A stretch of DNA of 46,745 nt from a virus, in IMG/VR virus record IMGVR_UViG_3300046477_000310, positions 1 to 46,745 of that record. The stretch is one strand, 5' to 3'. Positions 1-46,745 of the stretch are shown here, piece by piece. The notes beneath the pieces were generated by a model, which saw only the letters and a list, made by a program, of their open reading frames with translations, made no database searches and had not been told where the DNA came from. Both the position numbers and the translations under genes were made by a program. Position 1 is the first letter of the stretch, and each line of letters begins with the position of its first letter.

Positions 1-24
1 GGTTCCACGGGCACCACTTCACCG
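1..24. repeat. Terminal direct repeat, copy 1 (circular overlap)
   Basis: These 24 bases are identical to 46722-46745. A long open reading frame is continuous through the join in the same frame, so the two copies are one locus seen twice in a circular or circularly permuted molecule. The repeat is short for a physical terminal repeat, and headful-packaging phages give circular assemblies. Confidence 0.9.
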
Positions 25-2677
25 TGCCGCCCAATGCAACCTCGTGATAGTCGGCAACCAGCCCGCGTTTCACTCCCTGCTTGTCAACATAGGCGATGTA
101 GACCCGCTCAAAGTCCGGGTCATCGTAGATGTTCAGTACATTGGCAACGTTCCGCCAGGTCGGGGCAATCGTGGCTGAAACCTTGTCCGGTATCTGCCCG
201 CTAAACCACTGCACGCCCTCCTGCCCTGCCCAGAGCGTCCAGCCTCTTCCCGTAGCCACGGCGTTGGAATTGAACGCCCCGCACTTGTCAGCAATCCTGT
301 TTACATACCAGGAAGACGGCTCTGTGTTGCCGATCTGCTGCGTGTAATAGACCCCGCGCTGGGTAACGAAGTACAGCGACTCCTGCTGAACAAACGTTGC
401 TCGCAGCTCCGTGCTGTCATCGTTCGGCCCAATATTGCCCGTCAGCGCATCGTATGCCTCTGGGTTCTGAATGTAACTCGGTCGCGCCACAGGGTTGCGG
501 TTCGGGTTATCCGCGTAGATCATCTGCAGGTCGCGGATAAGCACCACGCCAAGCTCCACGCTGAACGTCATGTCATCAGGGATAGTCGCGGGCATCGCAG
601 CCGAGAAGTTCGCCGTGACGTAGTTGATGCCCGTCAATGTCGCGGTGGAAGAGAAGCCAGTGCTCGCTGAACTGATGGTCGCCGTAATCGAGCCATTGGA
701 TAGCCACGCCCGCAACGAATACCGCAGATTCGGCTGCAGAATCGCCGCTCCCTGTGCTGTCTTGGCCGCTGGCTGCGAGATTGTTCCCGGCCCGCCCAGC
801 ACCGGCATAAAGCCCGTCTGCGAAATCGAGGGAGTACCCACCCGCGTCCAGCCCAAAGGCCCGGTCTGCCCTGACAGCGTTCCGCCATCCATGCCCATGT
901 TCAGGAAGCCGATAACCGTGTTGGCCTCGCCAATCGGTATCATCCGGTCGCCATACCAGTTCATGCCACGCGGAAGATTCAATGCGACCTGCTGAAACAG
1001 GTTGTTGCCCGGTATATCAATCGCAATCCCGCCGAACAGTGCCTGGTCGGTGAAGTTCATCGTCCCCGAAGAGGTCGTGTTGTCGTTCACCACCGTAGAG
1101 GTTCCCAAAACTACGCCGTTGACTTGCGGAACGATGGGCAGAAAGAAGAAATTCCCGCCATTGGCTCCGGTAAAGGCGATGCCGCGGGCTACAACGTTGT
1201 TCGGTCCGATGGGGAGACCGGAGAAAGCAATCGCGTTCGTGTTCGAAGGCAGCGTGAACTTGGCAATCGGCCCTACTGCGGTCGTCAAGCCGGTTTCAGT
1301 AATGAAAAAAGCCACCGCAAGCCGTGTACCGGAGGCCATTTCAGGCGCATTTCCAGCAAAGTCAATCTCTCCGCCCGTCGAATCTCCGAAAATCGCGGCC
1401 GGATCGAAGATGAACTGCGTTCCCGCCGTTGTTCCGCTGCCCGTCTCCACCGTATTGGGGAAAGTTACCGAAGGATCGAAGCCGGTAATCGTGAACGTCC
1501 CGCTGGAGCCGCCAGCAACCGTCGCGATGGTAAGATTCTCGCCATTCAGCGAGCCATTCGCGTTCAGCGTGTTCGTAATCGTGATCTTTTGCCCTGCTGT
1601 CGGGTTCGCGCCGGAACTTACTGCGTAATGATAGGTTGCTGTTCCACCTGAGAGTGATGTTTGCGTGATGCGCAGCGTGCCAGAGTCCAGCGTCTGCGTT
1701 ATCGTCCAGGTGTTGTCGTAATCCGCCACTGAAGCGCCGGAAATCGGTATCTGCGTGCCTGCCGTAAGCCCCGGAACCGGCGTTGCCATCGTCAGGGTTG
1801 CCCATGTGATCTGGTACTTCCCTGTGATGCCTGCGTTGATGCCACCGCGGTTGTGCGCAGAGCTATTGTCAACCGTAAACGTGATGTACCAGCGCTCCGC
1901 CGTAGCTCCGGCAAAGGGTGGAACGCCCATCCCGATCGAAGTAACAAGCTGCGTGCCGTTGTAAGGGCCAAACTCATCAGAAAGGCCGCTAAACACCACG
2001 TTGACGGGAAACCCTGAGTTGAATGCCGCAGTTAGAACAGGATCGCCGCCGGGGAAGTGCCCTGCGCGTGCATTGGCCGTGTAAACCGTCACCACATTGC
2101 CGACAGCGGTTGTGCCCGGCCCTGAAGACTGAAGAATGCCATCGAAGTTCCCGAGCTGGCCAGGAAACCCCGGAGCGGGCTGCGTGATGGTTGAAATCTC
2201 ATATGTCGTGCCCGATACAGCCACCGCAGAGAACGAAGGCGCTGCCCCTGGGCCGCCCTGTGATACTCGCGCAAGATTACGGCCGTCCCACTGCCGCGGA
2301 GCGTCACATGGGCCGTTATCGTTGAAGAATGCCATGTACTCGCGCCCGTAGGCGGTCACGGAATTGACTTTGCTGCCCGGCGTAACGGCATCCACCTGCG
2401 TATACGAACCGTCAGCGCGAACCACATACAAAGCGCCGTTGATTCCAAGAGCCACAACCTGCGTTGTGCCGTCCTTGCAAAGAAACTCTTTGCGGTAGAC
2501 GATCTCCTGCGGCAGCGTGACTGTAGCCCGGAACGGGTTGCGTGTAGCCATGCCGTTAGGCACAAACACCATATCCGAGCAGTCCGGCGAATGGTCCGCG
2601 GGGCAGTTAGAGGATGGAGTATCGGTGCGCAGGCCATTGAACTGGCTGTAAGCAGCCGCCTGAATCTTTACTGTCAA
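1..2677 (-). CDS. Large tail/structural protein, N-terminal ~890 aa (continues across the window join)
   Basis: This minus-strand frame is open from 2677 to base 1 and continues in frame into 46743-46297, for about 1033 residues. The chosen start is a TTG that overlaps the upstream gene's TGA, because the first residues (IQAAAYSQFNGLRTDTPS, then SPDCSDMVFVPNG) look like the conserved opening of large podovirus structural proteins. The first ATG lies 35 codons later. The protein is rich in beta-forming Gly, Thr, Ser and Asn residues and has no signal peptide or membrane segment. It sits right after the connector-type gene at 2674-3492, where short-tailed phages place tail hub or stabilising proteins. 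It has no recognised catalytic motif, so the role is inferred from position and composition. Confidence 0.75.
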   Translation of the reverse strand, partial: MTVKIQAAAYSQFNGLRTDTPSSNCPADHSPDCSDMVFVPNGMATRNPFRATVTLPQEIVYRKEFLCKDGTTQVVALGINGALYVVRADGSYTQVDAVTPGSKVNSVTAYGREYMAFFNDNGPCDAPRQWDGRNLARVSQGGPGAAPSFSAVAVSGTTYEISTITQPAPGFPGQLGNFDGILQSSGPGTTAVGNVVTVYTANARAGHFPGGDPVLTAAFNSGFPVNVVFSGLSDEFGPYNGTQLVTSIGMGVPPFAGATAERWYITFTVDNSSAHNRGGINAGITGKYQITWATLTMATPVPGLTAGTQIPISGASVADYDNTWTITQTLDSGTLRITQTSLSGGTATYHYAVSSGANPTAGQKITITNTLNANGSLNGENLTIATVAGGSSGTFTITGFDPSVTFPNTVETGSGTTAGTQFIFDPAAIFGDSTGGEIDFAGNAPEMASGTRLAVAFFITETGLTTAVGPIAKFTLPSNTNAIAFSGLPIGPNNVVARGIAFTGANGGNFFFLPIVPQVNGVVLGTSTVVNDNTTSSGTMNFTDQALFGGIAIDIPGNNLFQQVALNLPRGMNWYGDRMIPIGEANTVIGFLNMGMDGGTLSGQTGPLGWTRVGTPSISQTGFMPVLGGPGTISQPAAKTAQGAAILQPNLRYSLRAWLSNGSITATISSASTGFSSTATLTGINYVTANFSAAMPATIPDDMTFSVELGVVLIRDLQMIYADNPNRNPVARPSYIQNPEAYDALTGNIGPNDDSTELRATFVQQESLYFVTQRGVYYTQQIGNTEPSSWYVNRIADKCGAFNSNAVATGRGWTLWAGQEGVQWFSGQIPDKVSATIAPTWRNVANVLNIYDDPDFERVYIAYVDKQGVKRGLVADYHEVALGGTVKWCPWN

Positions 2678-30632: not shown

Positions 30633-30962
30633 ATGAAAGTCCTTATCGTTCTCTTGATGGCGCTGCCTGCGTTGGGTCAGCGGCACCCCGCTCCTGGCTG
30701 GATCGAGGTCGCGGATAATCCCGCGTATTACGACACAAGGACGCTCTACCGCGGAGACACGTTCCACAATCTAATGGATACCGCCATCTACGATCCATCG
30801 CCGTTTACTGGCTGGGATGGCTATCGTCTTTGGATAAACACGATTCCCGGTGAGCCAGTCCGCTGCAACGGTGACGATATGAGGGGCCAACAGGTATGCG
30901 TCGGAATTCACAGTTATGCGGGGATGTTTTTACTGCCATCCTATTTGGAGTCACCCATCTAA
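30633..30962 (+). CDS. Secreted protein near attP (possible conversion gene)
   Basis: 109 aa with AGGAG before the ATG. A signal peptide is clear (KVLIVLLMALPALG then QRHPAPGWIEV), with glutamine at the predicted +1 position. The mature part has DNPAYYDTRTLYRGDTFHNL and two cysteines (PVRCNGDDMRGQQVC) that may form a disulfide. It stands alone on the plus strand next to the attachment site, as lysogenic-conversion genes often do. Its 3' end overlaps the converging minus gene by 12 nt. Confidence 0.65.
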   Translation: MKVLIVLLMALPALGQRHPAPGWIEVADNPAYYDTRTLYRGDTFHNLMDTAIYDPSPFTGWDGYRLWINTIPGEPVRCNGDDMRGQQVCVGIHSYAGMFLLPSYLESPI

Positions 30963-32693: not shown

Positions 32694-35600
32694 TTATTGC
32701 TGGATTGCTACAGACCCTGAAAACGACACGTTTCCGCCGATCTTCATGGTCTGAGTCGGCGCGGCTCCGGTCACCGTAAAGGCATCTCCCGGCGCGGTCA
32801 GGGTCTCAGCCGTGCAGTTCAGCGTTCCCGTCCCAGGCGTGCTCGTGGCCGTCCAGTTGAGGCCGCTTATCGTCATGCTGCCCGTATTGGTGGACGTGCA
32901 GGCTGGGGCGAAGCAGGCCCGCGTAGACGAATCGCTCAGGGTCGCCGTGCAGACCAGCGTTCCGCTCGTGCTGATTGGCGTCGATAGCGGATTAGGAGTT
33001 ACCGCAATGGATACGACTGTAGGGCCGCCGCTCGGGTCGTAGGCTCCCAGCGTCGTGAGGTCCGTGCGCAGGGTGAATGGACTCATGTTCGCGTCCACCG
33101 CGTTGAAGCGGGGCGGATACATCGCCGCCACACCCGTCAGCGGTGTAGCCTGCCCAATGGCCTGAGAGCCAGAAACGAGCTTTAGCGAGGATAGGTCGAC
33201 CGGATAGACGGAGTAATTGATGAAGTTGGGTGCCGTCCAGCCATTCAAGCGCTTATTGATTGGGTCTGGGTTGCCCCATACATCAAAGAAGCTCGGCTCG
33301 ATATAGAGACCAGCCTGCGGGGGCGCATTGGAATAGGTGACGTTGACAGTTGAGCCGGGGGTATAGCCGCCCGCTGTCGTCATGTTGCTCTGAAAGCTGA
33401 CGAATGCGGTTTCCAGATACGTGAAGGCGTTGCATGTGCCGATGCCTCCAGCCTGACAATTGGTGTTGTCGTAGCTGGGCATAATGTTGTTGGCCCAAAA
33501 GTCTTGAGGGTAGTAGAAGGGCCAGAACCAGCGGTCGGGAGGCTCAAGGCCAGCGAACCCAACCCTGATGTTCTCCCACGTCCGAATTCCACCCGCAGCC
33601 ATTGCCGTGGGGTTGTAGATGATGGTGTTGTAGCTAACCCACTGCTTCTGGGTCAGGTTGCCGGGATAGTAGGCGGCGGCGGGGTAAGCGTAGGTCTGGA
33701 ATGACTCGAAGTTGTGTGTCATGGCTGAACCAATAGCAGCCACGCCGTACTGATAATAGAGTGCGTTGCCGATAACGAAGTCGGTCTGCGCGTGCTCTTC
33801 GAGACGGGCTGCAAACCAGTCAACCGGATTGACTCCGGTAACGCCAAGGCAGAATGGAGCGCTGGCATAGAGCGTGTTGCAGTTCGGTGCGCCCTGGTAG
33901 CCATAGAACTCATCCTCGTTGTCGTAGTTGTAGGAATCCTGCCGCTCTGAATGCCCACCGCCATAGCTTGCTGAAGTGTTCGAGCCGGTCGGCTGGAGGC
34001 GGTTGTACATATGGAAGCTGCGCGAGCCGCGGTCAGAGAAGAACGACGTTCCCTGAGATCCCGCTACCGCCCCATCCTCAAGGTTCAGGAAGGCAGCAGC
34101 GCGATCGGCTTGCAGATAGAAGGGGTGGTCGAGGAAAGAACCGTTACTCCCATACGCCTCCATGTGGTTGCCTTCATAAAAAGTGTCTATTGAGCAAGCC
34201 TGCCATCCGCTCTGTTGGGGGTTGCAATCATCGAAGTTTGAATTGGCGACTCTCTCATCATGAACGCCGATTTTGTTGAAGTTCTGAATACCAGTAGGCC
34301 GGATGCCCATTGAGCCGCCCCATGCGGCAGTCCCGCCAGTAACGGCGTTGTAGTTGTATCCAGGGCTTACGTTGCGAACGTGAACGCCGGAGATGAGCAC
34401 GTAAGAAAACGGCTGTGTCTGACCGTTGAAGGTGCCGAAGCCTACGCTGGCATTGGTGAGGCCGAACAGCGCATAAGGCCCAACAATGTAAGGCGAAGCC
34501 CATGAATTTACGGTGGCGTTCGCGCCGTCGATGATCGGCAGCTCGCCCGTCGTGGGGTTTGGTACGCCGCACATCTTGAATGCGGGCTTGCGGTCGGTGA
34601 AGGGTCCACCCGAAGGTGTGTTGATCTGGACCTGATTGTGGTACTCGGTGGGGCTTCCGTTCGCTCCCTCGTTGTGCAGTCTTACCTTGACGGGGCCGGT
34701 AAGCGTCTGCGGAATATCCAGCAGGCTGTGATAGGTCTGAGTAGGGCCAATCTCATAGATGGTTCCCCACGTCACGCCATCGGTATTCCCTGCTGGGCAA
34801 GGAACCTGCTCAACCTTGTCTGCATTTGCCGCTGGCAGGGTCGTGTGATCGAAGACGTTGATGGCAATTTCCGTGCAGGCATTTGTAGATGAATCGACGT
34901 GCGGGCAGGCTTTAATGTAATACGTTCCGGCTACGGTTCCTGAGTAGAAAACGGGCTGCGGAAAGGTCGCGAATTGCAGCGTTGCATTACCGCCGCCTGG
35001 AGCCGAAACAATCGTCCAGTCCATCGCCTGATTCGTGTTGCCGTAGACCTCGCCCTTTAGCGGGATATAGCGGTCGGTGAACGCATCCCTGGTGCCGGGA
35101 TTAGCAAACGCTTTGCCGAGCACGCCTGCATATCCGCCGCCGTTAGCGCCTACGACGTAGTGATGAATGCTGAACTTGGTTGGGTCGTCGTCGCTTGTCC
35201 ACTTTACGTCAAACTCAACCGTGGAATGGATGGCGAAGTTGCTGCTTGTGATTGATCCGGTGGTCGAGGTTACGCCCGCAACCGGCCCGACCTGAAAGTT
35301 GAAATATGCAGGCACATGCGCGATGGTCGGATGAGCCACAAGGCCCGAATCGGCGGTGTGATCTTCACTGTAAAGCCGAAAGGTTTCGGAGGCGTCACTG
35401 CCCGTGCTGATAATCTCCGCTGTGCCCAAACCGGTAAATCCCGCGCCCTGAGTTTTGAACAGAAATGCATTGGCCTCAGTCCCTGAGCCAGAGCCGCCGC
35501 TGTAGTTCAGCACAATGGTGGTGGATGTGCGCGAGACAATCGTATACGGGTGGTAGTTCAGATACGCCAGCGCCGACGAAGTAAACCCGTTGGCCCAGAC

Positions 35601-35840
35601 CACATCTCCCGCGGTGTAGGTGTTGTTGCAGGTAAGCGTGAGCGTCGAGCCGCTGAAACTGTAGGCGGTGCATTGCGCGTTACCGCCCCATACGCGGGCA
35701 AGCTCCTGACGCTCCGAACCGGCGAGCACATGGCCGGGATAGTTGTACTTGCTATAGGGCGGGGTCGTTACGACAACCTGGCTGAAGATCCAGCCGTTCG
35801 CAATGCCGAGTAAGACGAGCAGGGGCAGGAGCTTTTTCAT
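32694..35840 (-). CDS. Large exported tailspike-like / beta-helix protein
   Basis: 1048 aa. N-terminal signal peptide (KKLLPLLVLLGIANGWIFSQ, with Q at +1). The body is beta-rich. A jelly-roll-like first part leads to a section rich in Asn, Gly and aromatic residues (ISGVHVRNVSPGYNYNAVTG, NSNFDDCNPQQSGWQACSID) typical of right-handed beta-helices of polysaccharide-cleaving enzymes. The C-terminal 110 residues resemble an Ig-like fold (VSIAVTPNPLSTPISTSGTL). This composition suits a host-surface polysaccharide binder or depolymerase. The signal peptide suggests export. Overlaps the 151-aa gene by ATGA. Confidence 0.7.
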   Translation of the reverse strand: MKKLLPLLVLLGIANGWIFSQVVVTTPPYSKYNYPGHVLAGSERQELARVWGGNAQCTAYSFSGSTLTLTCNNTYTAGDVVWANGFTSSALAYLNYHPYTIVSRTSTTIVLNYSGGSGSGTEANAFLFKTQGAGFTGLGTAEIISTGSDASETFRLYSEDHTADSGLVAHPTIAHVPAYFNFQVGPVAGVTSTTGSITSSNFAIHSTVEFDVKWTSDDDPTKFSIHHYVVGANGGGYAGVLGKAFANPGTRDAFTDRYIPLKGEVYGNTNQAMDWTIVSAPGGGNATLQFATFPQPVFYSGTVAGTYYIKACPHVDSSTNACTEIAINVFDHTTLPAANADKVEQVPCPAGNTDGVTWGTIYEIGPTQTYHSLLDIPQTLTGPVKVRLHNEGANGSPTEYHNQVQINTPSGGPFTDRKPAFKMCGVPNPTTGELPIIDGANATVNSWASPYIVGPYALFGLTNASVGFGTFNGQTQPFSYVLISGVHVRNVSPGYNYNAVTGGTAAWGGSMGIRPTGIQNFNKIGVHDERVANSNFDDCNPQQSGWQACSIDTFYEGNHMEAYGSNGSFLDHPFYLQADRAAAFLNLEDGAVAGSQGTSFFSDRGSRSFHMYNRLQPTGSNTSASYGGGHSERQDSYNYDNEDEFYGYQGAPNCNTLYASAPFCLGVTGVNPVDWFAARLEEHAQTDFVIGNALYYQYGVAAIGSAMTHNFESFQTYAYPAAAYYPGNLTQKQWVSYNTIIYNPTAMAAGGIRTWENIRVGFAGLEPPDRWFWPFYYPQDFWANNIMPSYDNTNCQAGGIGTCNAFTYLETAFVSFQSNMTTAGGYTPGSTVNVTYSNAPPQAGLYIEPSFFDVWGNPDPINKRLNGWTAPNFINYSVYPVDLSSLKLVSGSQAIGQATPLTGVAAMYPPRFNAVDANMSPFTLRTDLTTLGAYDPSGGPTVVSIAVTPNPLSTPISTSGTLVCTATLSDSSTRACFAPACTSTNTGSMTISGLNWTATSTPGTGTLNCTAETLTAPGDAFTVTGAAPTQTMKIGGNVSFSGSVAIQQ

Positions 35841-36292
35841 TTGCCAGCCTTTGTGCAGGAGGTGGAGGCATAGGAGCCGTCCGAGTAGAGGTTGACTGTG
35901 CAGGTAAACGTGGCTACAACCGTGGCTTTCGTTGCGCCCTGGGTCACAGCAAGCGCAGGTACTGTCACCGTGGAGGTCTGCCCATTGGTCGTCAGCTTTA
36001 CCGTCTGCGGAGAGGCTGTTTGCAGAACGTCCAGCTCTTTCACCACATTCGGCGCAGGGTCACAGGCAAAGCTGGTGTAATAGGCAGGAAGAGGAACCCC
36101 GGTAGAGAAGCCAGAGAGCCATCCCAGCGCCCCACACGCCCCGCTGGTGCTCGCGGTCGCACCGAAGCGATAGGCGGCACCAGACGGCAGCGTTACCGTT
36201 GTGGCGGGGTTCTCTACCGCAACCTTGAACCACGTCTGGGCGCAGGCAGGCAACGTCACCGCCATCCAGAGGATGATTATTTTTAAGTCCAT
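35837..36292 (-). CDS. Small exported beta-rich protein
   Basis: 151 aa with AGGAG upstream. Signal peptide KIIILWMAVTLPACAQTWF, cleaving after ACA with glutamine at +1. The mature part is an Ig-like or carbohydrate-binding-like sheet (TVTLPSGAAYRFGATASTSG, LTTNGQTSTVTVPALAVTQG) with cysteine pairs. It is coupled to the tailspike-like gene and may be its partner. Confidence 0.65.
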   Translation of the reverse strand: MDLKIIILWMAVTLPACAQTWFKVAVENPATTVTLPSGAAYRFGATASTSGACGALGWLSGFSTGVPLPAYYTSFACDPAPNVVKELDVLQTASPQTVKLTTNGQTSTVTVPALAVTQGATKATVVATFTCTVNLYSDGSYASTSCTKAGK

Positions 36293-36325
36293 GAAATGTC
36301 TCCTGTGGTACGCTCAGAACCGCCG

Positions 36326-36454
36326 ATGCCTAAACACCTGTTTTCCATCTCGTTAGCAGTCAGTGCCGCTACCCTGACTTACCTGGTGGCATCACCCACC
36401 GCCCTACACAGATTCGTGCTAGCCTTTTCCTCGCTGGGCGGGCTAATGCGCTAA
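36326..36454 (+). CDS. Small opposite-strand membrane protein in the tail cluster
   Basis: 42 aa (PKHLFSISLAVSAATLTYLV, then ASPTALHRFVLAFSSLGGLM). One to two hydrophobic segments. It fills the gap between two exported-protein genes on the other strand and overlaps the next one's end by 4 nt. No good ribosome site, so the call is uncertain. Confidence 0.35.
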   Translation: MPKHLFSISLAVSAATLTYLVASPTALHRFVLAFSSLGGLMR

Positions 36455-37497
36455 GGGTGGTAGGTGATTACAACGATCCCTTGTCCACCCGACCCACCTG
36501 CACCATTCGCTCCCCTGAATCCACCAGATCCACCGCCGCCGCCATAGAGTCCTCCGGTGCCTCCATTTGCCCCTACCCCGGAATTTGAGCCACCACCGCC
36601 ACCAGCCCCACCGCCAGAACCATACGCCCCCCATTCGAGACCATTGCCGCCATTGCCGCCAACATAGGCGACGACGCCCACGCCACTCTTCGATCCGCCA
36701 CCGCCGCCGCCTGATGCTCCATTGCTATCGCCTGTCCCATTTCCAGCAGCAGATGTATCCGCCACTGCTCCTGCGCCACCGGCTTTCGATGCGCTGAAGT
36801 TCGCTCCGCCAGCACCGCCATTGTTTACGTTTCCGGGGGGTGAGCTTCCCGCCGCTCCACCGCCCGAACCACCACCACCGCCTGCACCACCTGCACCGCT
36901 GCCCGTATTACTCGCTCCACCTGCAGCTCCTGCGCCATTAGGCCCAGCCGCTCCACCACCACCAGCGAAGGCTGTGTGAGAATCGGGAGTACCAGCGGCA
37001 CCGCCGTTGAAGTGAGTCGTTCCCGTTCCGCCTGAGCCACCTGCCGCAGGCGTGCTGGTTCCATCACATCCTTTGCCACCCTTAGCGACTACCGAAGTGG
37101 TAAATGATGAGTCGCCACCGTTGCCACCAGTGCCGCTGGTTGTCCCGCCCGTGCCTGCCGCGCCTATGGTTACGGTAATGTTGGCGGTCGATGTATAGCT
37201 AACCGAATCGGCTCTGTATTCTCCGCCACCGCCGCCGGTGACATTCGATCCACCACCCAGGCCTCCTCCACACCCTCCGCCGCCTGCACCAATCGCAGCA
37301 ACCGTGATGGCGCTGCCATTTGTCGCAGCGTGCCATGTGACAGAGGCAGTGCAATACTCCTGAATGTTGCCGCCGCTAACGTATGCTCCAGTGCATACCG
37401 TTCCGGGCGGGGTAGTCGAGAGCATAGCTCCCCCTGGTCCGGGGATGCGAGATTGACCGCCAACCAAAAGCAGAAAGAAGCAAAGAAGGTAGCGCAT
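36451..37497 (-). CDS. Exported glycine-rich adhesin-like protein
   Basis: 348 aa. Signal peptide RYLLCFFLLLVGGQSRIPG with Q at +1. The rest is dominated by glycine (runs such as GGGGGSGGGAAGSS). The C-terminus, GGSGGQGIVVITYHP, is the ending seen in many glycine-rich phage tail adhesins. Glycine-rich sheets at tail-fibre tips bind surface sugars or proteins. The start overlaps the previous gene's TAA (TAATG). Confidence 0.75.
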   Translation of the reverse strand: MRYLLCFFLLLVGGQSRIPGPGGAMLSTTPPGTVCTGAYVSGGNIQEYCTASVTWHAATNGSAITVAAIGAGGGGCGGGLGGGSNVTGGGGGEYRADSVSYTSTANITVTIGAAGTGGTTSGTGGNGGDSSFTTSVVAKGGKGCDGTSTPAAGGSGGTGTTHFNGGAAGTPDSHTAFAGGGGAAGPNGAGAAGGASNTGSGAGGAGGGGGSGGGAAGSSPPGNVNNGGAGGANFSASKAGGAGAVADTSAAGNGTGDSNGASGGGGGGSKSGVGVVAYVGGNGGNGLEWGAYGSGGGAGGGGGSNSGVGANGGTGGLYGGGGGSGGFRGANGAGGSGGQGIVVITYHP

Positions 37498-40184
37498 TAG
37501 TTCACCGTGTAGATGACGTGCACAACGAAGAACTTCGCTGTGCCGCCCGCTGTGCCGCTCACCAGTTCGAGATAGTCACCGGCTGACAATGACGTGTTCT
37601 GTAGCGTAGAAGAACAGGTCGTGGCTCCGTTGATCCCTGTTGTGCCGCCAGTGTTCGAGCAGGCAATACCGCCAGATGCTGCTGTCGCAAGGGCCGATGA
37701 AACAATGTTGACTATGGTGCCAGCGTGATTCCTTCCGATAATGACGTTGGGTGTCCCCGCATCAGCGTTAACGTCCATCTCTACAACCGTTGAAGCGGCA
37801 GGGATGAAACACACCCTCGACTGTGGGCCAAGCTGGGCGTTAGTTATTGCGGCGCTGGCTGAAGTATCACCAACGGGTATATCGCACGTGCGGTAGGTGT
37901 TGACGACGGCAAGCTTCGCGCTTGTGACGGCGTTATTTACGAGTCCGGCAGTAGGCAATCCGGTTGCATTGGTCAGGACCAGAGCAGATGGCGTGCCGAG
38001 GGCCGGAGTGACCAGCGTGGGCGAGGTGGCCTTCACGTAGTTTCCCGTACCAGTCACCGTTACGCCTTGGATGACCGTCGAGCTTGTCCATTCAGCAGCC
38101 TGTCCGCTTGTCGGGGTGCCCGTGTTGGAGACATTGCCCCCGCCTCCGGGGGATGCCCACGTACCATCGCCACGCCAAAACGTAGAGCTTGATGCGCTGG
38201 TTCCGCTGTTGAGATTAGCTACGGGGAGGTTGCCCGTTACGCCAGTGCTTAGAGGGAGGCCCGTTGCGTTCGTCAGCACACCGGATGCGGGGGTTCCCAG
38301 TGCAGGCGTCGTGAATGTCGGGGCAGTCAGGGTTAGGCCTGCGATGGTTGTAGTCGTGCTGCTCGCCGCGACGGAGGTTGAGCCGATGGTGATGGGAAAA
38401 CCAGACGTACCGCCGCAGGGGGAGCCGCTATCTACAATGTCAATACCGTTAGCCGCCAATTTGGGGCAGTTGTTAGCTGTTCCCGCCGTCGCAATGCCAA
38501 CCGCCTTCACTGCCCCGGCGTTGTTGTTGTTCATCACCCAGCGGTGAGCCGCGGAGTCGGGATAGAGAAGATCGCTGGACGCCACGCCTGATGGTGCGGT
38601 TCCTTCCACCGCGGCAAAGCCATTGCCGGGGCCACTGACTGCGAATGCTTGGGATACCGTAGTGGTATTGGCTGTCGTAACGCCATCGTCCATGTGTGAA
38701 TTCGCAATCGAGGTGGAGGATGCGGCCTTTGGAATATACCCCGTCGTCAAGCCAGAGATTCCGCCAGCTACAGCGCAGCCCGTAGCATTGCCGTTGGCTA
38801 GAACGCCGGTAGGAGCTTGGCCTAGTGGGCAGAGTGTCGGAGTCGAAGCCAAGGCCGTGGCTGTGGCCGCGTTGCCCGTCGTGCTCTGGTTCCACGTCGG
38901 CACTGTGCCGCCAAGGTCGCCGTACTGGATCTGCACATAATCCGGGGCTGCCGTCGAGCCGGTGTTGTTGCCGAAGAACCGATGCGCCGCCGCGTTGCTA
39001 AGATTGAACTGAAGGAACGGCGTGGTCGTGCTGGTTGCTACCGAAGTGGTGAATAGCGGGGAGAGCGCACCCGCAGAGAAGTTGGTTACGCTTCCCACGC
39101 CCGAACCGCCACCGCCCGCCGCAAGGTTGAGAATCGTTGCGGTGGGTGTAATGCTGGAGGCGGTGTGATTGCATACCCGCCAGTTGACCGTATCGGTCGA
39201 GGGCCATGCCTGAAACTCCAGCCCTCCGTCCCATCCGCTTCCCGCCGGGCTTGTGCTGAAGGCAGCAGCGAAGGCCGTAGAGGAAACTACGCCGGGCATG
39301 GATGCTGTCGTAGCCCCTGTGCAGGAATTGGCCGAGATGGTTGAGGTCGGCATGGATATCTGGATAGGCGTGACCGCCGAAGGGATGATCGGGCAGGTTC
39401 CATCTGCCTTGAGGAATCCAGTGCAGGAACCGCTTGCCCAGAGTTGAACGATATCGCTGAAGGTCGCATTACGGCTGGCTACACCCGAAGTGTTGTAGAC
39501 GACACCAGGACTGCCGGGAAAGGTAGCGCCACCGCCACCGCCGCCGCCCGCAGGTGCCCATGATCCATCGGCCCGCAGGAAGTTGCTCGTTCCACCGCCC
39601 GAAGCAGGAACCGCGCCGCTATTCGCAGAGCCGAAGAGTGGGATGCTTCCTGAAATGTCACTGTAGGTCAGGGTAAAGAAACTTGGAAGTGCGCTGCCTG
39701 CGGTACGGTTTCCGAAGACGGTATGCGCCGCGGCATTTTGCAGGTTGAGGCTTGGCGTAGTCGTTGGGTTGGAGACGGCAAACAGCGGAGATCCGCCACC
39801 GACATTCGTTACCGAACCCGAACCACCACCGCCTGAGCCGCCGAGAGTAACCGGATACGTCCCAATGACTCCCCGCGTGGTCGAAACCTGATACCAGTAC
39901 GTCCCCGCCGCCGCCCAGAATCCAAACCGGCCCGCCGTATCCGTCAGGAACTGGCTAGAGGTTGGCACCGTTAGCGCCTGGTCGAGATAGATGGTAGCCA
40001 GCGAAGAGCAGGCAGAGGTGGTGCAGACTTTGATGTTGGCCTTGGAATAGGCCAGCACCGGAGCACTCGCGCCCGTAGGTACATTGGTCGCAACCGTCGT
40101 CACTTGCTTATCAAGGCGGAAGCCTTGCCCGTGGCAGGTTACGGCGAGCGCCGCGAAGAGTCCGGCGTAGCGGAGAAGTTTCAT
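37497..40184 (-). CDS. Exported long tail-fibre-like protein
   Basis: 895 aa with AGAGG upstream. Signal peptide [19 protein letters not shown] with Q at +1. Residues about 40-130 form a beta-sandwich ([20 protein letters not shown]) shared with the next fibre gene. After a glycine linker come several fibre repeats of the type found widely in phage tail fibres, for example [20 protein letters not shown] and [20 protein letters not shown]. The C-terminus ([20 protein letters not shown]) looks like a beta-sheet head. It resembles a receptor-binding fibre but is built for export. Confidence 0.8.
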
Positions 40185-40210
40185 TATGACCTCTTGTGGG
40201 GTTGGGGGTA

Positions 40211-41422
40211 TTACTTAGCCGCTACAGTCCAGTTGGTGCCGTTGCAATAGGCAAGGACGTGATTCGTGCTTCCGCCTGTGACAGTCGCGCCCCATGTGTT
40301 CGTTGTGGAGTCGGTGACAGGGCGCATCGTTCCTTCCAATCCGCTAATGCAGGCCGGGAGGGAAGAAAAGGTTGTCGTGGTGATCTGGACTGTACCGTTT
40401 AACGTGTTGGCGTGGGTCGGGCCGCAGCCCAGCCCAACACGGACCCCTAAAGTGTTCTGGTCTCGGCCTACAAAGTCACAGAAATTGGAGGGGGTTGACG
40501 TGTTATTGGCTTCGGACAGGAAGCCGTAATTCTCACCGGTGATCTGGTCTGTGCTTAAGGGGGCCATCCCTGAATAAAACCCCCAATGCTTATTAACCGT
40601 GGCCCCGGCGTTTACGTGGGGTTCGTCCGCTTCGAAGTTGGTAAGGTTTACTCCTGCGGCTCCGGCAGTGGGAGAAACTTCTATACCAATTGCGTTCTTC
40701 CCTGCGCGATAAACGCCGGTAGTGTCGAAGAGTCCAATGATCCCAGCCGAACTTCCGGTATAGTCTCCGTCATCAATCGAAATATCGACTCCGGGGGTTT
40801 GCAGGCTCCCTCCCCCTGCCGCTCCAGTCCCTCGATAAAATAGGTGGTTGCCGTCCGTCGTTAAGTAGTTGTCGCTAGGCGTATCAGCGGATTTTACGGA
40901 AAGTGAGGCTGTAAGCTGACCGCCGTTGATAATCTGCACTTCTCCGACGCTGTTCGTGATGAAGTTCGCGGAGCCTGCGCAGTTTCCTCCACTGTTGTAG
41001 ACGACAGATGTAAATGGAACGCCATCCAGCGAGCATCCCGAGCCACCGCCGCCCGTCCCGCCTACGGTAAAGGGGTAAGTCCCCACCACCGCGCCTGCCT
41101 GATTCACCACGCTGTAGGAATAGGTTCCCGCGGCCACCCAGAAGGCAAAGCGGCCCGTCGCGTCGGTCGTAATCGGCTGAGTAAGGGGCTGCGCTCCCGC
41201 CTGGTCAAAAAAGATGGGCACCGCATTGGTGCAGGGCGAATTCACCGCGGGGTAGGCACACACCGTAATGGTGGCAAAGGGCACCGTCATAATCGCCGCC
41301 GCAGCCCCAGCAGGCACGTTATTGGCGGGCTGGGTGGCATTGCCGGTGAAGCTTCCCAGCGTCTGCGCGTACATCGGTGCAGCAAGGGCCAGCAACAGTA
41401 CCCATTTCGGGAATCGCTTCAT
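40211..41422 (-). CDS. Exported tail-fibre-like protein
   Basis: 403 aa with AGAGGAG upstream. Signal peptide [20 protein letters not shown], cleaving after MYA with Q at +1. The following domain ([20 protein letters not shown], then [16 protein letters not shown]) is a paralogue of the one in the 895-aa fibre. The C-terminal half is beta-rich and ends with [20 protein letters not shown]. First gene of the exported-protein cluster. Likely a fibre or a surface protein. Confidence 0.75.
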
Positions 41423-41575: not shown

Positions 41576-41818
41576 ATGTTCACGGTTGCCGGTGGAATCC
41601 TGATTGCCGTTGTGGTGATCGTCGGGCTAATGCTTCTGGTCCCGGCAATCGGCTTAGTTCGTAAGGTTCTTCGAACTGAGATTTCAGACGAGACGCCCGA
41701 ACAGTGGGCAGCCAAACAGCCTACCTACGACGAGTACCTGAAGAAGCGAGTACGGGAACGGCGTATGGATTCAGCAGCGGAATCTTCCGACCAGCCCTCT
41801 CTACGGTCTGACCTATAA
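41576..41818 (+). CDS. Opposite-strand single-span membrane protein
   Basis: 80 aa. N-terminal span (GILIAVVVIVGLMLLVPAIG) then a charged soluble tail (ETPEQWAAKQPTYDEYLKKR). GGGAG lies upstream at a longer than ideal distance. Its last 98 nt overlap the end of the ejection-like gene antisense. The span and tail look like a real protein, perhaps a lysis or exclusion function. Confidence 0.5.
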   Translation: MFTVAGGILIAVVVIVGLMLLVPAIGLVRKVLRTEISDETPEQWAAKQPTYDEYLKKRVRERRMDSAAESSDQPSLRSDL

Positions 41819-43334
41819 CTGAAGTAGCTTGCGGCAAATATCCAGGCCGAGCCGGTAGGTTAAGTTCGTTGGGCGAGCGGTAGCGGTCGAGTGCAGCGTT
41901 CGTAACCGCGTCTGAATCGGTGAGGTTCTTGAACATGCGGGATGTGCCTAAGTTGTAAGCCTGCGTTACCGGATTGCCGTGCAGTTGTAGGCTCTCCTGA
42001 AGGCTCAAGGGGTTTGCTCGTCCAGCGACAGTCGCTCGCTTCCCTGCTACCTTCGCCACATCCGAAGCGTGACCATAAAGTTCCTGATTCTGTGCAATGT
42101 CGTCAACCGGCACTCCGCTCTGCCGCGAAAGCTCGTCATAAACCAGATCCCGCGTCCCGCTATTGACCGCTTCAGTTCGTGCCGTCGCTGGGTTGGAGCG
42201 TGCAGCGTTACGATCGCCGCCCTCCTTATTGAAGAAAGACTTCAGTTTGGCGTTCGTGTCCTTACGGATTGCGTCCACCGTGTTCAATGACGGCTTCTTG
42301 GGAACGGTCGTCACCTCGCGAGTGAAGGGCTGCCCATCGGGGCCAAGAATCGGGCTGGTTACGGTCTCGGTTTTGGGCCGCATGTCGTAAACAGAAGCCC
42401 GCTTGAGCGTGGCTGGGCCAATGCCCGGCGTCTCGAACATATCCGTCGCCGGGATGCTCCTGACCTGATCGCCCACCAAAGATGTCGTGTCAATCGGGTT
42501 ACGCAGGTAAGGTGACTTGAGGTTCTGATACCAGTCGTTCGCCGCGTCTCTGACCTTAAGAGCAGCATCTGAGAATCCCTTTACGCCCTTGGGATTCTGC
42601 TTGGCAATCTCAGGCAGTGTAGCTTCAACCGACTGCTCAAAGTCAGGCATCGAAACAGGAGGCTTCAGCGAACGGTTCAGCATCTCGCCCGGCGAACCCG
42701 TAACCAGTCCGCGAGTTGCCGCAACCTTCTGCGCCTCCGGGGTAGCCGCGGCAAAACGTAGAGCCTTACCAGAGACATTCGCCGCTCCGCCAAGCACTTT
42801 CCCCGCGGCCTTTGGAGCCAGCAAATCCGTGCCGAGTCCAGCAAGCGCAGGCACCACCCCATAGGTCGCCGCATCGTTCTCAATGCCACGAGCCCAAGGC
42901 CCAACGATCGGAATGGCATCGGTGGCATGGTTCATTACTTCCGTCGCATTCTTGCTACCTGGAATCTGCCGCAGAGCATCGACGGTAGGCTTCACAAACA
43001 TGCGGTGGATGCCGAGACCAGCCGGGCCGAGCGGGGTTGATGTCGCTGCCATCTCATCATCCGATTGAGCGGGTGCGGTAAACGCGCCGATTGGCCCAGC
43101 CACCATGCTCTTCAGGTGCTGCCCTATAACCACTCCGGTGTTACGTATTGGCCTATCGCCAACCAGTTTTTGCCCAGATGTTCCTTCGGGCTGCATGTTG
43201 GCTTCAGGATGAGCCGCGAGCTGAGGCACGCCGTAGGCTCCAGCGCCCGCGACAGAAGGCGCAGCCGTTGGGGAATTCTGCTCAAACCAGTTGCCCGCTT
43301 TAGGTGCGTTCTGCTCAAACCAGCTCTTCGGCAT
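41721..43334 (-). CDS. Ejection/internal virion-like protein
   Basis: 537 aa, no signal peptide. It begins with a repeated motif (SWFEQNAPKAGNWFEQNSP), then Ala/Gly/Pro-rich and helical parts (IVGPWARGIENDAATYGVVP), and a charged helical C-terminal half. In short-tailed phages, large Ala/Gln-rich proteins before the fibres are internal proteins ejected with the DNA. The order (before fibres, after tail hub) agrees. The ATG overlaps the previous TAA (TAATG). No lytic transglycosylase motif is seen. Confidence 0.65.
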   Translation of the reverse strand: MPKSWFEQNAPKAGNWFEQNSPTAAPSVAGAGAYGVPQLAAHPEANMQPEGTSGQKLVGDRPIRNTGVVIGQHLKSMVAGPIGAFTAPAQSDDEMAATSTPLGPAGLGIHRMFVKPTVDALRQIPGSKNATEVMNHATDAIPIVGPWARGIENDAATYGVVPALAGLGTDLLAPKAAGKVLGGAANVSGKALRFAAATPEAQKVAATRGLVTGSPGEMLNRSLKPPVSMPDFEQSVEATLPEIAKQNPKGVKGFSDAALKVRDAANDWYQNLKSPYLRNPIDTTSLVGDQVRSIPATDMFETPGIGPATLKRASVYDMRPKTETVTSPILGPDGQPFTREVTTVPKKPSLNTVDAIRKDTNAKLKSFFNKEGGDRNAARSNPATARTEAVNSGTRDLVYDELSRQSGVPVDDIAQNQELYGHASDVAKVAGKRATVAGRANPLSLQESLQLHGNPVTQAYNLGTSRMFKNLTDSDAVTNAALDRYRSPNELNLPARPGYLPQATSVIGQTVERAGRKIPLLNPYAVPVLASSGTRRR

Positions 43335-44824
43335 TACTGCACCACCTTCGCGCCCTTGCTCTTGTAGTGCTCAACCTGATCTGCCGGAACGGGCATAACG
43401 GTGCCGTCCGGAGCCTGCATCTTCACAGTTCCGCCGGTGTTGCCGCCTCTGTGCTTCACGCCTGCACCCCCCGTAACTCCCACCTGACCCGGAGCGAGTC
43501 GTCTGAGCACTTCTTCCTGCTGATTCAGCTTGTTGTAAGCGCTTGCGTTGGTATCGCTGCCGAACTTTGGCACAACTTCGAGGATGCGTTGCGCTCCTGC
43601 CTCTGAAGACGTGCCGCCCGTGGTCGAGCGCAGGATGCCCGCCTGCTCCATCGTCTGCCGCTGGGCATTGAGCAGATTGATTGCTTCCTTTGAAAGCCCA
43701 CCGGTAACCAACTTGCCCTGAATGATCTTGCCGACCGTCGAGTTCGGGTCTGCCGCTGCCGCCGCGAGTGTAGCGTCGGAAAGGTCGCCGCCCGTCGCCT
43801 CGTATGCCTTGATTGCATCGCGGAGATGCGTCACGGAGCCGGAGAGGTCGTTGAAGGTAACAACCTTGCCCTGCTGCCTGATTGCCGTGTTCGCGTTCCT
43901 GCGTCCAAGGTTGGTAACGTTGCCTTGGTCGTCGGTGATCTGAGGCGTACCCGGAAGCGGAGTGCCATCGGGTCCAGTGCCGTAGAAATCGGCGTTCTGA
44001 TTGTTCTCGCGTAGCTGCAGCCCCTTTGCCCGCAGGCCGAGGCTCCCCATTGCAACCTGAAGCTTTTGGTCTACCTGCTGCAACTTCTTCTGCGCTTCCG
44101 TCCACTCCGGCGTGCCGGGGATGTAGTGATTCTTCTGGATGTCGGCCATGATCGCAGACTTGTCTGCAGTCGCCTGGTGCATTGCCGACAAAGCCTGATG
44201 GTCCTTGAAAGCCTGCGACTCGTGATCGTCCTCGAACGTGGGGATTCCATCGGGGCCGGTGGTCATCTTCAGGCCGCGAGCAGCCGCGACACCGGCAAGC
44301 CTGTCGAGGCTCATCTGGTGCTTCTGCTCTATCTTTGCTTCCTCAATATCAGGCCGCTGGTTGAGGTAATTGGTATTGGCCTCAGTCTGCCCGACCTGAG
44401 CAAGATTCTGCTCGTTGCCAATGTCCTGCCCGATACGTGCCTGATCTTGAGCCAAGAGAAATTGGTGGTGGTTCTCTGTTCCAGGAGTAGCCGCTGCTAT
44501 ACCGGGAGCTAGGATAGACAGGCCGATATCCCCAGCGCGGGCGAGGCCACGCAAGAGCGGATTCTTGATCTGATGAATCCCCGAGCCTGCAGTCAGCTTG
44601 TCCTGATACGCCTGCTGATCACCAAGCAACCGGCTCTGCGTGTTCTGCACTGCCTGATTGGGCTGCCTCAATACGGACAGCGCAGGTGAAGCAATGCCCG
44701 TCAACGGATTCGGTCCCACTGGAGGCGGCGGAGGCGGTGCAGCGGCAGGCATCGTTGCCAGGTTCACGTCAGGCACTGGCAACCGCTGGATGCGCTTGTA
44801 ATCGTCAATGAGAGGGTTGCCCAT
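43334..44824 (-). CDS. Ejection/internal virion-like protein
   Basis: 496 aa. A proline-rich N-terminus is followed by long helical stretches rich in Gln, Ala and Asn (QDQARIGQDIGNEQNLAQVG; TEWTEAQKKLQQVDQKLQVA). The C-terminus is small and basic (TVMPVPADQVEHYKSKGAK). This is the composition of podovirus ejection proteins. TAATG overlaps join it to neighbours on both sides. Confidence 0.65.
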   Translation of the reverse strand: MGNPLIDDYKRIQRLPVPDVNLATMPAAAPPPPPPVGPNPLTGIASPALSVLRQPNQAVQNTQSRLLGDQQAYQDKLTAGSGIHQIKNPLLRGLARAGDIGLSILAPGIAAATPGTENHHQFLLAQDQARIGQDIGNEQNLAQVGQTEANTNYLNQRPDIEEAKIEQKHQMSLDRLAGVAAARGLKMTTGPDGIPTFEDDHESQAFKDHQALSAMHQATADKSAIMADIQKNHYIPGTPEWTEAQKKLQQVDQKLQVAMGSLGLRAKGLQLRENNQNADFYGTGPDGTPLPGTPQITDDQGNVTNLGRRNANTAIRQQGKVVTFNDLSGSVTHLRDAIKAYEATGGDLSDATLAAAAADPNSTVGKIIQGKLVTGGLSKEAINLLNAQRQTMEQAGILRSTTGGTSSEAGAQRILEVVPKFGSDTNASAYNKLNQQEEVLRRLAPGQVGVTGGAGVKHRGGNTGGTVKMQAPDGTVMPVPADQVEHYKSKGAKVVQ

Positions 44825-45378
44825 TATCTCTTCGCTCCGTAGTATGCCGCCGCGCCTTGAATTACCGAATTAACCGGAGCGAGCCAACTGTTTAGCGTCT
44901 GATTCTGCGCTTCCGATTGTGCATTAAGTGCGTTTGTCGACAAACCGAGGGCGTTCTCTCCGGCTCCAACATTCTGCCCATACATCCCCTCAAGTCCCTG
45001 AATCCCCTGCGATCGCTGCTGTTCCTTCAGCATGGCGTTGCGGTTCTGTACTCCCAGCGCCGCGTCTGACAGTTGCGCTGTAGCATCATGCGCCGCCTGA
45101 GTCGCTGCCGGAGCAAATCCGCCCGCATTGTTGGTACGCGCCGCCTGCAGATTCCCTTGCCCCACAGTGCCAGCCACAGCCCCACCGATCGACTGCTGCG
45201 CCGCCGTGTTCATGTTGTTCATGGTCTGCTGGTCAAACCCCTGCGGGTTCGTCGCCATCTTGTTCAGAGTTGGCGTAAGGATGTTGTACGTGCTTGAGGC
45301 GCGGTCTCCGTAACTCCCCGCCATCCCCTGCGCCGTCTTCGAATTTTGCCCCGCTGCCGCTGCGGTATCTCTCGCCAT
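44824..45378 (-). CDS. Small ejection/virion-like protein
   Basis: 184 aa from the ATG at 45378 with AGGAG 7-8 nt upstream. Ala/Gln/Asn-rich and helical (QQTMNNMNTAAQQSIGGAVA; SEAQNQTLNSWLAPVNSVIQ). Resembles the smallest of the internal virion proteins in P22-like gene orders. Ends in a short basic tail (AAYYGAKR). Confidence 0.6.
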   Translation of the reverse strand: MARDTAAAAGQNSKTAQGMAGSYGDRASSTYNILTPTLNKMATNPQGFDQQTMNNMNTAAQQSIGGAVAGTVGQGNLQAARTNNAGGFAPAATQAAHDATAQLSDAALGVQNRNAMLKEQQRSQGIQGLEGMYGQNVGAGENALGLSTNALNAQSEAQNQTLNSWLAPVNSVIQGAAAYYGAKR

Positions 45379-45388
45379 CCCGAGTCTC

Positions 45389-45775
45389 CTATAAGTACCG
45401 GCAATATGATTGCCAGCGTGACCGTACCCACCCAAGTTGCTTTACCAGACGCCTGCCGAATGCCTTGTCCACCACTGGAGGAATCCAGCAATGCGCATCC
45501 GTAAATCCCTTTTGCAACAGAAGCCGGTGCATCCCCTCATGCAGCAGTTTCAGCACATCAAACCTCCATGCAGGGGTTCTCCACTTCGGATCGCCCAGCA
45601 TGTAAACCTCAACCGTCTTCCGCGCCGCCACCGCCTGCACTGGCACGTCATTTTCATCCACCGCAACCAGCACCGCTTCAAACGCCGTCAGGTCGGGGAA
45701 CTCGTAATCGAATCCCTGTTCTGCGTGCAGCTTTCTTAGAATCGGCTCATCTGATGCGCGAAACTCTCGAATCAT
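45389..45775 (-). CDS. GNAT-like acetyltransferase in the virion operon
   Basis: 128 aa. Layout resembles the GNAT fold: IREFRASDEPILRKLHAEQG (first strand and helix), VPVQAVAARKTVEVYMLG (central strands), then RFDVLKLLHEGMHRLLLQKG and VDKAFGRRLVKQLGWVRS. The acetyl-CoA loop (Q/RxxGxG/A) is not clean, so activity is uncertain. It lies between a small structural gene and the ejection-like genes, where similar GNAT-like genes occur in many podoviruses. Confidence 0.6.
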   Translation of the reverse strand: MIREFRASDEPILRKLHAEQGFDYEFPDLTAFEAVLVAVDENDVPVQAVAARKTVEVYMLGDPKWRTPAWRFDVLKLLHEGMHRLLLQKGFTDAHCWIPPVVDKAFGRRLVKQLGWVRSRWQSYCRYL

Positions 45776-46296: not shown

Positions 46297-46745
46297 CTAG
46301 CGCACTCCTGAAACTGGAGCGTTCGGATCAGGCGTGTACACAATCGTCGCGCTCTGCAGGCTGTAATGCACCCCCGCCTGCCCCAGCTTCGCCCACAGCT
46401 TCCTGCCGCGCGTATTCATCGGCCACTCCGCTACCGAATCAATCAGCGTGCTCAGTTGCTGCCCCTTCAGTGTGTCGGTTACGGTGTCCAACGTCGATGC
46501 ATAGACAAACGGCGTCAGGATGCCAACTCCGTCAATCTCAAAGAACGCCTGCGAGTAGTTCTTCTGCCACGCCGAACTTCCAGCCGCGGCGAAGACGTAA
46601 TAGCCGCCAATGTCTCCAAGGTTGTCGTCCGTCGTGCCCTCTGCCGTATCCAAACGGTAGAACGTCGAGCCGATAACAAAGATCGTCCCGCTTGCCGAAT
46701 TGCAAACCCAGTCGAAAGGACGGTTCCACGGGCACCACTTCACCG
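46297..46745 (-). CDS. Large tail/structural protein, C-terminal part (continuation of 1-2677)
   Basis: This is the carboxyl end of the protein that starts at 2677. Joining through the 24-base overlap gives a continuous reading (YHEVALGGTVKWCPWNRP), and the total of 3102 nt is an exact multiple of three. A gene caller treating the window as linear would wrongly start a 148-aa protein at the GTG at 46743. The part here reads like a beta-propeller or jelly-roll segment (FVIGSTFYRLDTAEG, YYVFAAAGSSAW). It ends with TAG directly before the ATG of the next gene at 46296. Confidence 0.8.
   Translation of the reverse strand, partial: VKWCPWNRPFDWVCNSASGTIFVIGSTFYRLDTAEGTTDDNLGDIGGYYVFAAAGSSAWQKNYSQAFFEIDGVGILTPFVYASTLDTVTDTLKGQQLSTLIDSVAEWPMNTRGRKLWAKLGQAGVHYSLQSATIVYTPDPNAPVSGVR
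46722..46745. repeat. Terminal direct repeat, copy 2 (circular overlap)
   Basis: Exact copy of bases 1-24. Removing one copy gives a circular unit of 46,721 bp. Confidence 0.9.

Follow-up and report, generated by a model that had tools for sequence, protein, structure and literature searches.

We analyzed IMG/VR virus record IMGVR_UViG_3300046477_000310 over its full length of 46,745 nt (positions 1 to 46,745; referred to below as the window), which encodes a phage integrase, a terminase, a major head protein, a DnaB-type helicase and a late structural operon. The subject of this study is a block of tail fibre and spike genes at 32694-41422. According to a preliminary description of this DNA, five consecutive genes in this block each start with a Sec signal peptide (SP) that is directly followed by Gln, and a lone protein encoded at 30633 has the same arrangement (ALG-Q). 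All five open reading frames (ORFs) were indeed present at these positions on the minus strand, and ALG-Q was seen in the N-terminus of the lone protein. These features are, with the SP cleavage site marked by a hyphen:

40211..41422, minus strand: 403-aa tail fibre; SP 41366-41422, P22-type head-binding-like domain ~41057-41365, C-terminal tip domain 40214-40420
37497..40184, minus strand: 895-aa tail fibre; SP 40128-40184, head-binding-like domain ~39837-40127 (same module as in the 403-aa fibre), 14 mature Cys
36451..37497, minus strand: 348-aa glycine-rich tail protein; SP 37456-37497, VGG-Q, 4 Cys
35837..36292, minus strand: 151-aa exported protein (predicted); SP 36239-36292, ACA-Q, 4 Cys; 4-base overlap with the next gene
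32694..35840, minus strand: 1048-aa spike-like protein; SP 35781-35840, IFS-Q, 16 mature Cys; by eye, the C-terminal part looks Ig-like
30633..30962, plus strand: lone 109-aa exported protein (predicted), MKVLIVLLMALPALG-Q (ALG-Q); 2 mature Cys, near the integrase and outside the late operon

Conservation of the signal peptides

SP calls were made with our own rule-based caller (an SP plus [AGS]-Q), by reading the N-termini by eye, and from conservation. Four of the 32 window ORFs of at least 130 aa passed the caller and all four were inside the five-gene block, for which the chance with four random calls is C(5,4)/C(32,4), or ~1.4e-4. The 151-aa protein failed solely on N-terminal charge (Asp2), and its 97% identical homologue in the related contig G001 passed. 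The N-termini were hydrophobic in all five proteins and had a basic end in four, the 151-aa protein carrying Asp2 and Lys4, and the tripartite organization with small residues at -3 and -1 was found both in the rule-based calls and in alignments. Upstream of the start codons, a Shine-Dalgarno-like sequence was clear in the 403- and 895-aa genes and weaker in the other three. Together with the conservation of the SPs, the two clear sites ruled out wrong start codons.

In a comparison with G001, the 403- and 895-aa fibres of the window had well-conserved SPs. For the 1048-aa spike, 10 nonsynonymous changes were counted in the 20 SP codons and 4 in the next 130 codons, and the segment nonetheless stayed an SP despite this turnover (GWIFS-QVVV in the window, GWVAQA-QVVV in G001). 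In relative G003 the spike is fused behind ~480 extra residues, with the SP located at the new N-terminus. We also considered whether the 151-aa protein could be a lipoprotein, given its lipobox-like LPAC, and rejected this; cleavage by signal peptidase I is likelier than cleavage by signal peptidase II, because the positional counterpart in G004 (149 aa, SPLYA-QWTKV) has no lipobox Cys.

The relatives found with the terminase have a common gene order with the window, and SP-bearing fibre genes occupied the same late-operon slot in all relatives with a tail region (five genes in G001, two in G002, three in G003, three in G004, and two in G006, an 897-aa gene being among the latter). All five block genes are contiguous and kept as a set in G001. 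The homologues of the head, portal, terminase and 496/537-aa genes in these relatives are without SP.

A head-binding-like module and paired cysteines

The 403- and 895-aa proteins share one module (residues 20 to ~120) that is present in many viral contigs. In both module alignments Gln at +1 and one Cys were invariant, a second Cys was fully conserved in one alignment and almost so in the other, and the SP varied. An AlphaFold model of the module, built from 12 sequences, had a mean predicted local distance difference test (pLDDT) score of 72. Foldseek matched this model with probability 1.00 to the Pan3, P22, Sf6 and Pam1 tailspikes, the best rows all being podophage tail proteins, and VIA-align gave Z 9.2 for Pan3 and 7.0-7.8 for P22, Sf6 and Pam1. 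In BFVD, viral tailspike and depolymerase-like proteins ranked first. A search of the whole PDB with the sequence profile (hmmsearch) likewise put four podophage tailspikes on top, Pan3 and Pam1 first, with E-values of only 0.09-0.15. The evidence that the module has the tailspike head-binding fold of P22, Sf6, Pam1 and Pan3 is thus good but not conclusive. With this head-binding-like domain directly behind the SP, the two fibres (403 and 895 aa) most likely belong to the virion and are not just surface decoys; they are probably virion-attachment proteins that carry a secretion signal.

The mature proteins of the block have 8 (403 aa), 14 (895 aa), 4 (348 aa), 4 (151 aa) and 16 (1048 aa) Cys residues, and several adjoining virion genes have zero. 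Among 74 distinct SP+Gln proteins from viral contigs, a few of which are not fibre genes, even numbers of Cys prevailed over odd ones by 67:6 (p=2e-14, counting proteins singly), the ratio being 100:89 for non-SP proteins of at least 300 aa from the same contigs. Even counts also prevailed with one representative per family (35:5, p=7e-7) and with stricter clustering (16:3, p=0.002). The density of Cys per 100 aa was 1.84 in SP+Gln proteins versus 0.85 in non-SP proteins. In addition, members of the spike family gained and lost Cys pairwise (57/71, 99/116, 191/231, 600/615 and 560/573). Even and co-varying Cys are the pattern of disulfide-bonded proteins, and disulfides would be expected here. 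From the cysteine pairs and the conservation of the SPs, we infer that the five proteins are really exported.

A natural control for this relation was provided by a prophage of Granulicella mallensis X5P3 (L093), which is syntenic with the window. Its module begins with MSGIRYDGN, without an SP and with both conserved Cys absent; the protein (693 aa, one Cys) matches phage tail-fibre families. A second prophage, G174, resembles L093 at the module in having no SP and neither module Cys. In the module tree these two Acidobacteriaceae prophages, the only SP-less lineage, form one clade placed among SP-bearing copies, and because of this placement the pattern reads as a single SP loss that coincided with loss of both module Cys. 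The caller missed the SP in ten module copies that have the Cys pair and, by eye, SP-like N-termini, so that the SP counts for the module copies are partly manual.

Host context of the signal peptides and the spike

To place the Gln at +1, soluble SP proteins were sampled from Acidobacteriaceae DNA (G174, G111 and G048; L120-L159), in which [AGS]Q was present in the cleavage region of 25/40, 22/44 and 5/9 proteins (~50-62%). The same count gave 2/26 (8%) in E. coli, and the shuffle mean was near 10/40. The view that the Gln is specific to the phage was thereby rejected, as this residue is common among host exported proteins; judged from these samples, Gln at +1 is a characteristic of the host and marks the typical cleavage site of exported proteins in Acidobacteriaceae. 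In each of the six genomes tested, the plant-type glutaminyl cyclase family PF05096 was matched (marginally in G048) and a VKOR-family protein was present, which makes a host cyclase and host oxidizing machinery both plausible. Because the genomes carry this cyclase family, cyclization of the mature Gln to pyroglutamate, as proposed in the preliminary description, is plausible as well.

The preliminary description had further raised the possibility of a captured host surface module, and had proposed a search for the cluster in other acidobacterial prophages and host loci. Searches of this kind located the head-binding-like module at prophage loci and the 1048-aa spike family in host chromosomes, so that the idea of capture is supported for the spike and not for the fibres with the head-binding-like domain. 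The spike family was present in 11/300 Acidobacteriaceae genomes. Its two nearest host copies align over most of the sequence, with 48% and 35% identity, carry an SP and C-terminal Big_3_5 Ig-like repeats, and are flanked by ordinary chromosomal genes (for example Tex, radical SAM, peptidase M19 and GFO/IDH oxidoreductase). Large secreted chromosomal Big_3_5 proteins with the N-terminal ~950 residues in common with the phage spike were located at G146:C1:451914-454688 and G287:C1:794587-797289. In the spike tree the phage and host copies interleave and well-supported branches force at least 3 label changes, the direction of transfer being unsettled; these comparisons support a common ancestry of the spike and the secreted proteins of the host. 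The AlphaFold model of the 1048-aa protein had a pLDDT of 26, for which reason no fold is claimed, and no sequence relative of this protein was found in the PDB. The 348-aa protein matches PHROG 863 (tail), with a Pfam Gly_rich_2 match below its cut-off.

The head-binding-like module was located in phage contigs and at clear prophage loci in four genomes, the context of other genomic matches not being settled. A genome scan with the module gave matches in two Granulicella assemblies only, and a wider search in 9/300 genomes of that family, two of these weakly; the weak matches L104 and L105 were left out as probably spurious. The closest cultured phages by terminase and capsid were distant Arthrobacter phages. 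INPHARED contained no matches to the 403- and 1048-aa proteins, a terminase-alignment search for prophages in the genome contigs returned nothing, and a search with the 537-aa gene upstream of the block gave no match. The window phage comes from soil and probably infects Acidobacteria, and its relatives suggest a host on the Acidobacteriaceae side. We label it podovirus-like from its genes alone, on the basis of its tailspike-type domain and because no tape-measure or sheath gene was recognized.

The syntenic anchor of the fibre block consists of the following genes:

41721..45435, minus strand: upstream late-operon genes of 537, 496 and 203 aa; without SP, zero Cys

Of note, the 537-aa gene (41721-43334) and its G001 counterpart have only ~50 residues in common, though the genes on either side are very much alike. 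At its right edge the window has an ORF (46297-46743) that runs off the end and matches just the last 148 aa of a ~1033-aa G001 gene, the remainder of which probably lies at the left end of the window (1-2673). Since only the end of this gene is present at the right edge, the record may be circularly permuted. SP+Gln genes were also observed in runs close to fibre-like genes in contigs L071-L072, L070 and L091, which are without this terminase or were not checked for it, and the trait may be wider than this phage lineage. Finally, an SP+Gln protein of 332-353 aa (QTYFNAPP/QSYFNAP) with 4-6 mature Cys is encoded in the head-gene module of some relatives (L048:552-1550, L054:11367-12428 and L022:9382-10389); it had no Pfam match and was not seen in the window.

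Proposed export of the fibres, alternatives and known systems

Tailed-phage assembly is classically described as a cytoplasmic process, and P22 tailspikes join last and spontaneously onto otherwise complete particles. The simplest account that covers the SPs, the virion-attachment-type fold and the cysteines is that the fibres and the spike are exported, oxidized outside the cytoplasm, and attached to virions at or after lysis, which we regard as somewhat probable. According to this proposal, the receptor-binding fibres and the spike would be made late with a cleavable Sec SP, translocated by Sec, and cleaved by host signal peptidase I at [AGS]-Q, after which the new N-terminal Gln could be cyclized by a host glutaminyl cyclase. 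Disulfide formation and folding would then take place outside the cytoplasm; meanwhile, heads and tails would be assembled inside it, still without fibres. Lysis would mix the compartments, allowing the head-binding domain to dock on the tail and complete the virion. The broader notion that there is a tailed-phage lineage whose virions are completed in this way, from fibres oxidized outside the cytoplasm that meet cytoplasm-built heads and tails at lysis, we put forward tentatively, as slightly short of an even chance. If true, tailed phages would gain access to disulfide-bonded, host-derived secreted spikes, and genes would pass between the host secretome and the phage tail, with host secreted proteins as a direct source of receptor-binding parts. 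Export and oxidation before attachment would also change fibre annotation and superinfection models for widespread uncultured soil phages.

Several points weigh against this proposal. Exported fibres that crossed the outer membrane before lysis would be lost. The phage lineage is known from genes alone, with no cultured member, and the SP calls are rule-based. The similarity of the module to head-binding domains has a modest margin, as the Z-scores are mostly below 8 and further beta-sandwich folds (among them CnaB and carboxypeptidase D) reach Z 6 to 7.8; the mean pLDDT of the model is only 72, profile-profile alignment with P22 gp9 (hhalign) was weak (E 0.11), and the module reached no Pfam family at its cut-off. 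No recognized virion-attachment domain was found in the 348-, 151- and 1048-aa proteins. As to the cysteines, the proteins entering the parity counts are partly interdependent, and an even number can also occur in cytoplasmic tailspikes (P22 gp9 has 8 Cys), which means that one even value taken alone is no proof. The control without an SP goes back to one evolutionary event, and G174 keeps nine Cys elsewhere in the chain. Copies in Granulicella metagenome-assembled genomes have an SP without the aligned Cys pair (L097) or an SP with only one Cys (L095); the link between SP and Cys is not absolute. In a literature search that was thin on subscription journals and preprints, we found no report of Sec-exported tailed-phage fibres.

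The preliminary description had offered a choice between exported receptor-binding proteins and a captured host module; export was well supported by the analysis, and the either/or proved too sharp, given the virion-attachment-type domain of the 403- and 895-aa fibres. It is rather unlikely that the proteins are exported without becoming part of virions and work on the cell surface or in the surrounding medium, in superinfection block, receptor masking, capsule degradation or lysogen adhesion. The same evidence for export serves this explanation equally, and the lone 109-aa protein is encoded away from the late operon. It would be strongest for the 1048-, 348- and 151-aa proteins because these have no recognized attachment domain, the 1048-aa family being a secreted chromosomal host protein too. 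However, the module of the 403- and 895-aa fibres has a virion-attachment-type fold, the genes belong to the late structural block of every relative that covers this region, the SP-less homologue at the same locus of a Granulicella prophage matches phage tail-fibre families, and no other receptor-binding candidate was found in the window. A division of the block into exported virion fibres (403 and 895 aa) and exported accessories (1048, 348 and 151 aa), some of them host-derived, would fit the restriction of the head-binding-like module to the former and the occurrence of the 1048-aa family in host chromosomes. We nevertheless consider it unlikely, as the five genes are contiguous and kept as a set in G001; a missing recognized domain is weak evidence, and the model of the 1048-aa protein is poor.

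That the SPs were inherited from host secreted proteins and are unused, or serve merely as a tether to the inner membrane while virions assemble with cytoplasmic fibres, would agree with the ancestry that the spike shares with such proteins and with the one phage lineage that manages without an SP. We find this improbable, because nearly all module copies keep the SP despite sequence turnover, Cys are gained and lost pairwise, and the cleavage context is that preferred by the host. Hardly credible is an artefact of wrong start codons or chance hydrophobic N-termini: the 403-aa gene does have an internal Met at residue 17 and ribosome-binding-site-like sequences are weak at three of the five ATGs, yet such a sequence is clear at the first ATG of the 403- and 895-aa genes, the SP is kept in distant homologues, and Gln at +1 is invariant in both module alignments.

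The proposed export of fibres and spike has partial parallels in known systems. Signal peptidase I substrates with an N-terminal Gln or pyroglutamate follow the Q-rule of Bacteroidetes (PMC5837995, PMC10653852), with which the present case shares the Gln directly after the cleavage site and a host glutaminyl cyclase family gene. Here, by contrast, the hosts are Acidobacteriaceae and the motif occurs in ~50-62% of soluble exported proteins. This rule was called Bacteroidetes-specific in a paper whose main text does not mention Acidobacteria (PMC5837995); the Gln preference that we observed suggests an Acidobacteriota counterpart. Phage proteins with Q-rule SPs were described for Porphyromonas gingivalis (PMC10367356), and these phage genes are similarly adapted to the Sec/signal peptidase I pathway of the host. 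They are five genes of unknown function, whereas those in the window are identifiable tail fibres and a spike, two of them with a virion-attachment-type domain. In a Bacteroides phage study, the target proteins of phage diversity-generating retroelements were without SPs (PMC6199706), and the phiCbK and Circe papers within the literature on phage SPs concern endolysins, spanins or methods, not tail fibres. WceF of Pantoea stewartii, an exported host protein with a tailspike-like fold, is a secreted glycan enzyme (PMC7949094) and thus a precedent for a spike-like protein as a host secreted enzyme. WceF belongs to the host and carries a Tat signal, unlike the 1048-aa family, which occurs on the phage and host sides with Sec signals. 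The podophage tailspikes of P22, Sf6, Pam1 and Pan3 resemble the fibres in the fold of the N-terminal module, the place in the late operon, and the long variable C-terminal parts behind a common N-terminal module, the sequence similarity to P22 being marginal. P22 gp9 and T7 gp17, both of which we checked, start without an SP, whereas the present module has a Sec SP and a conserved Cys pair.

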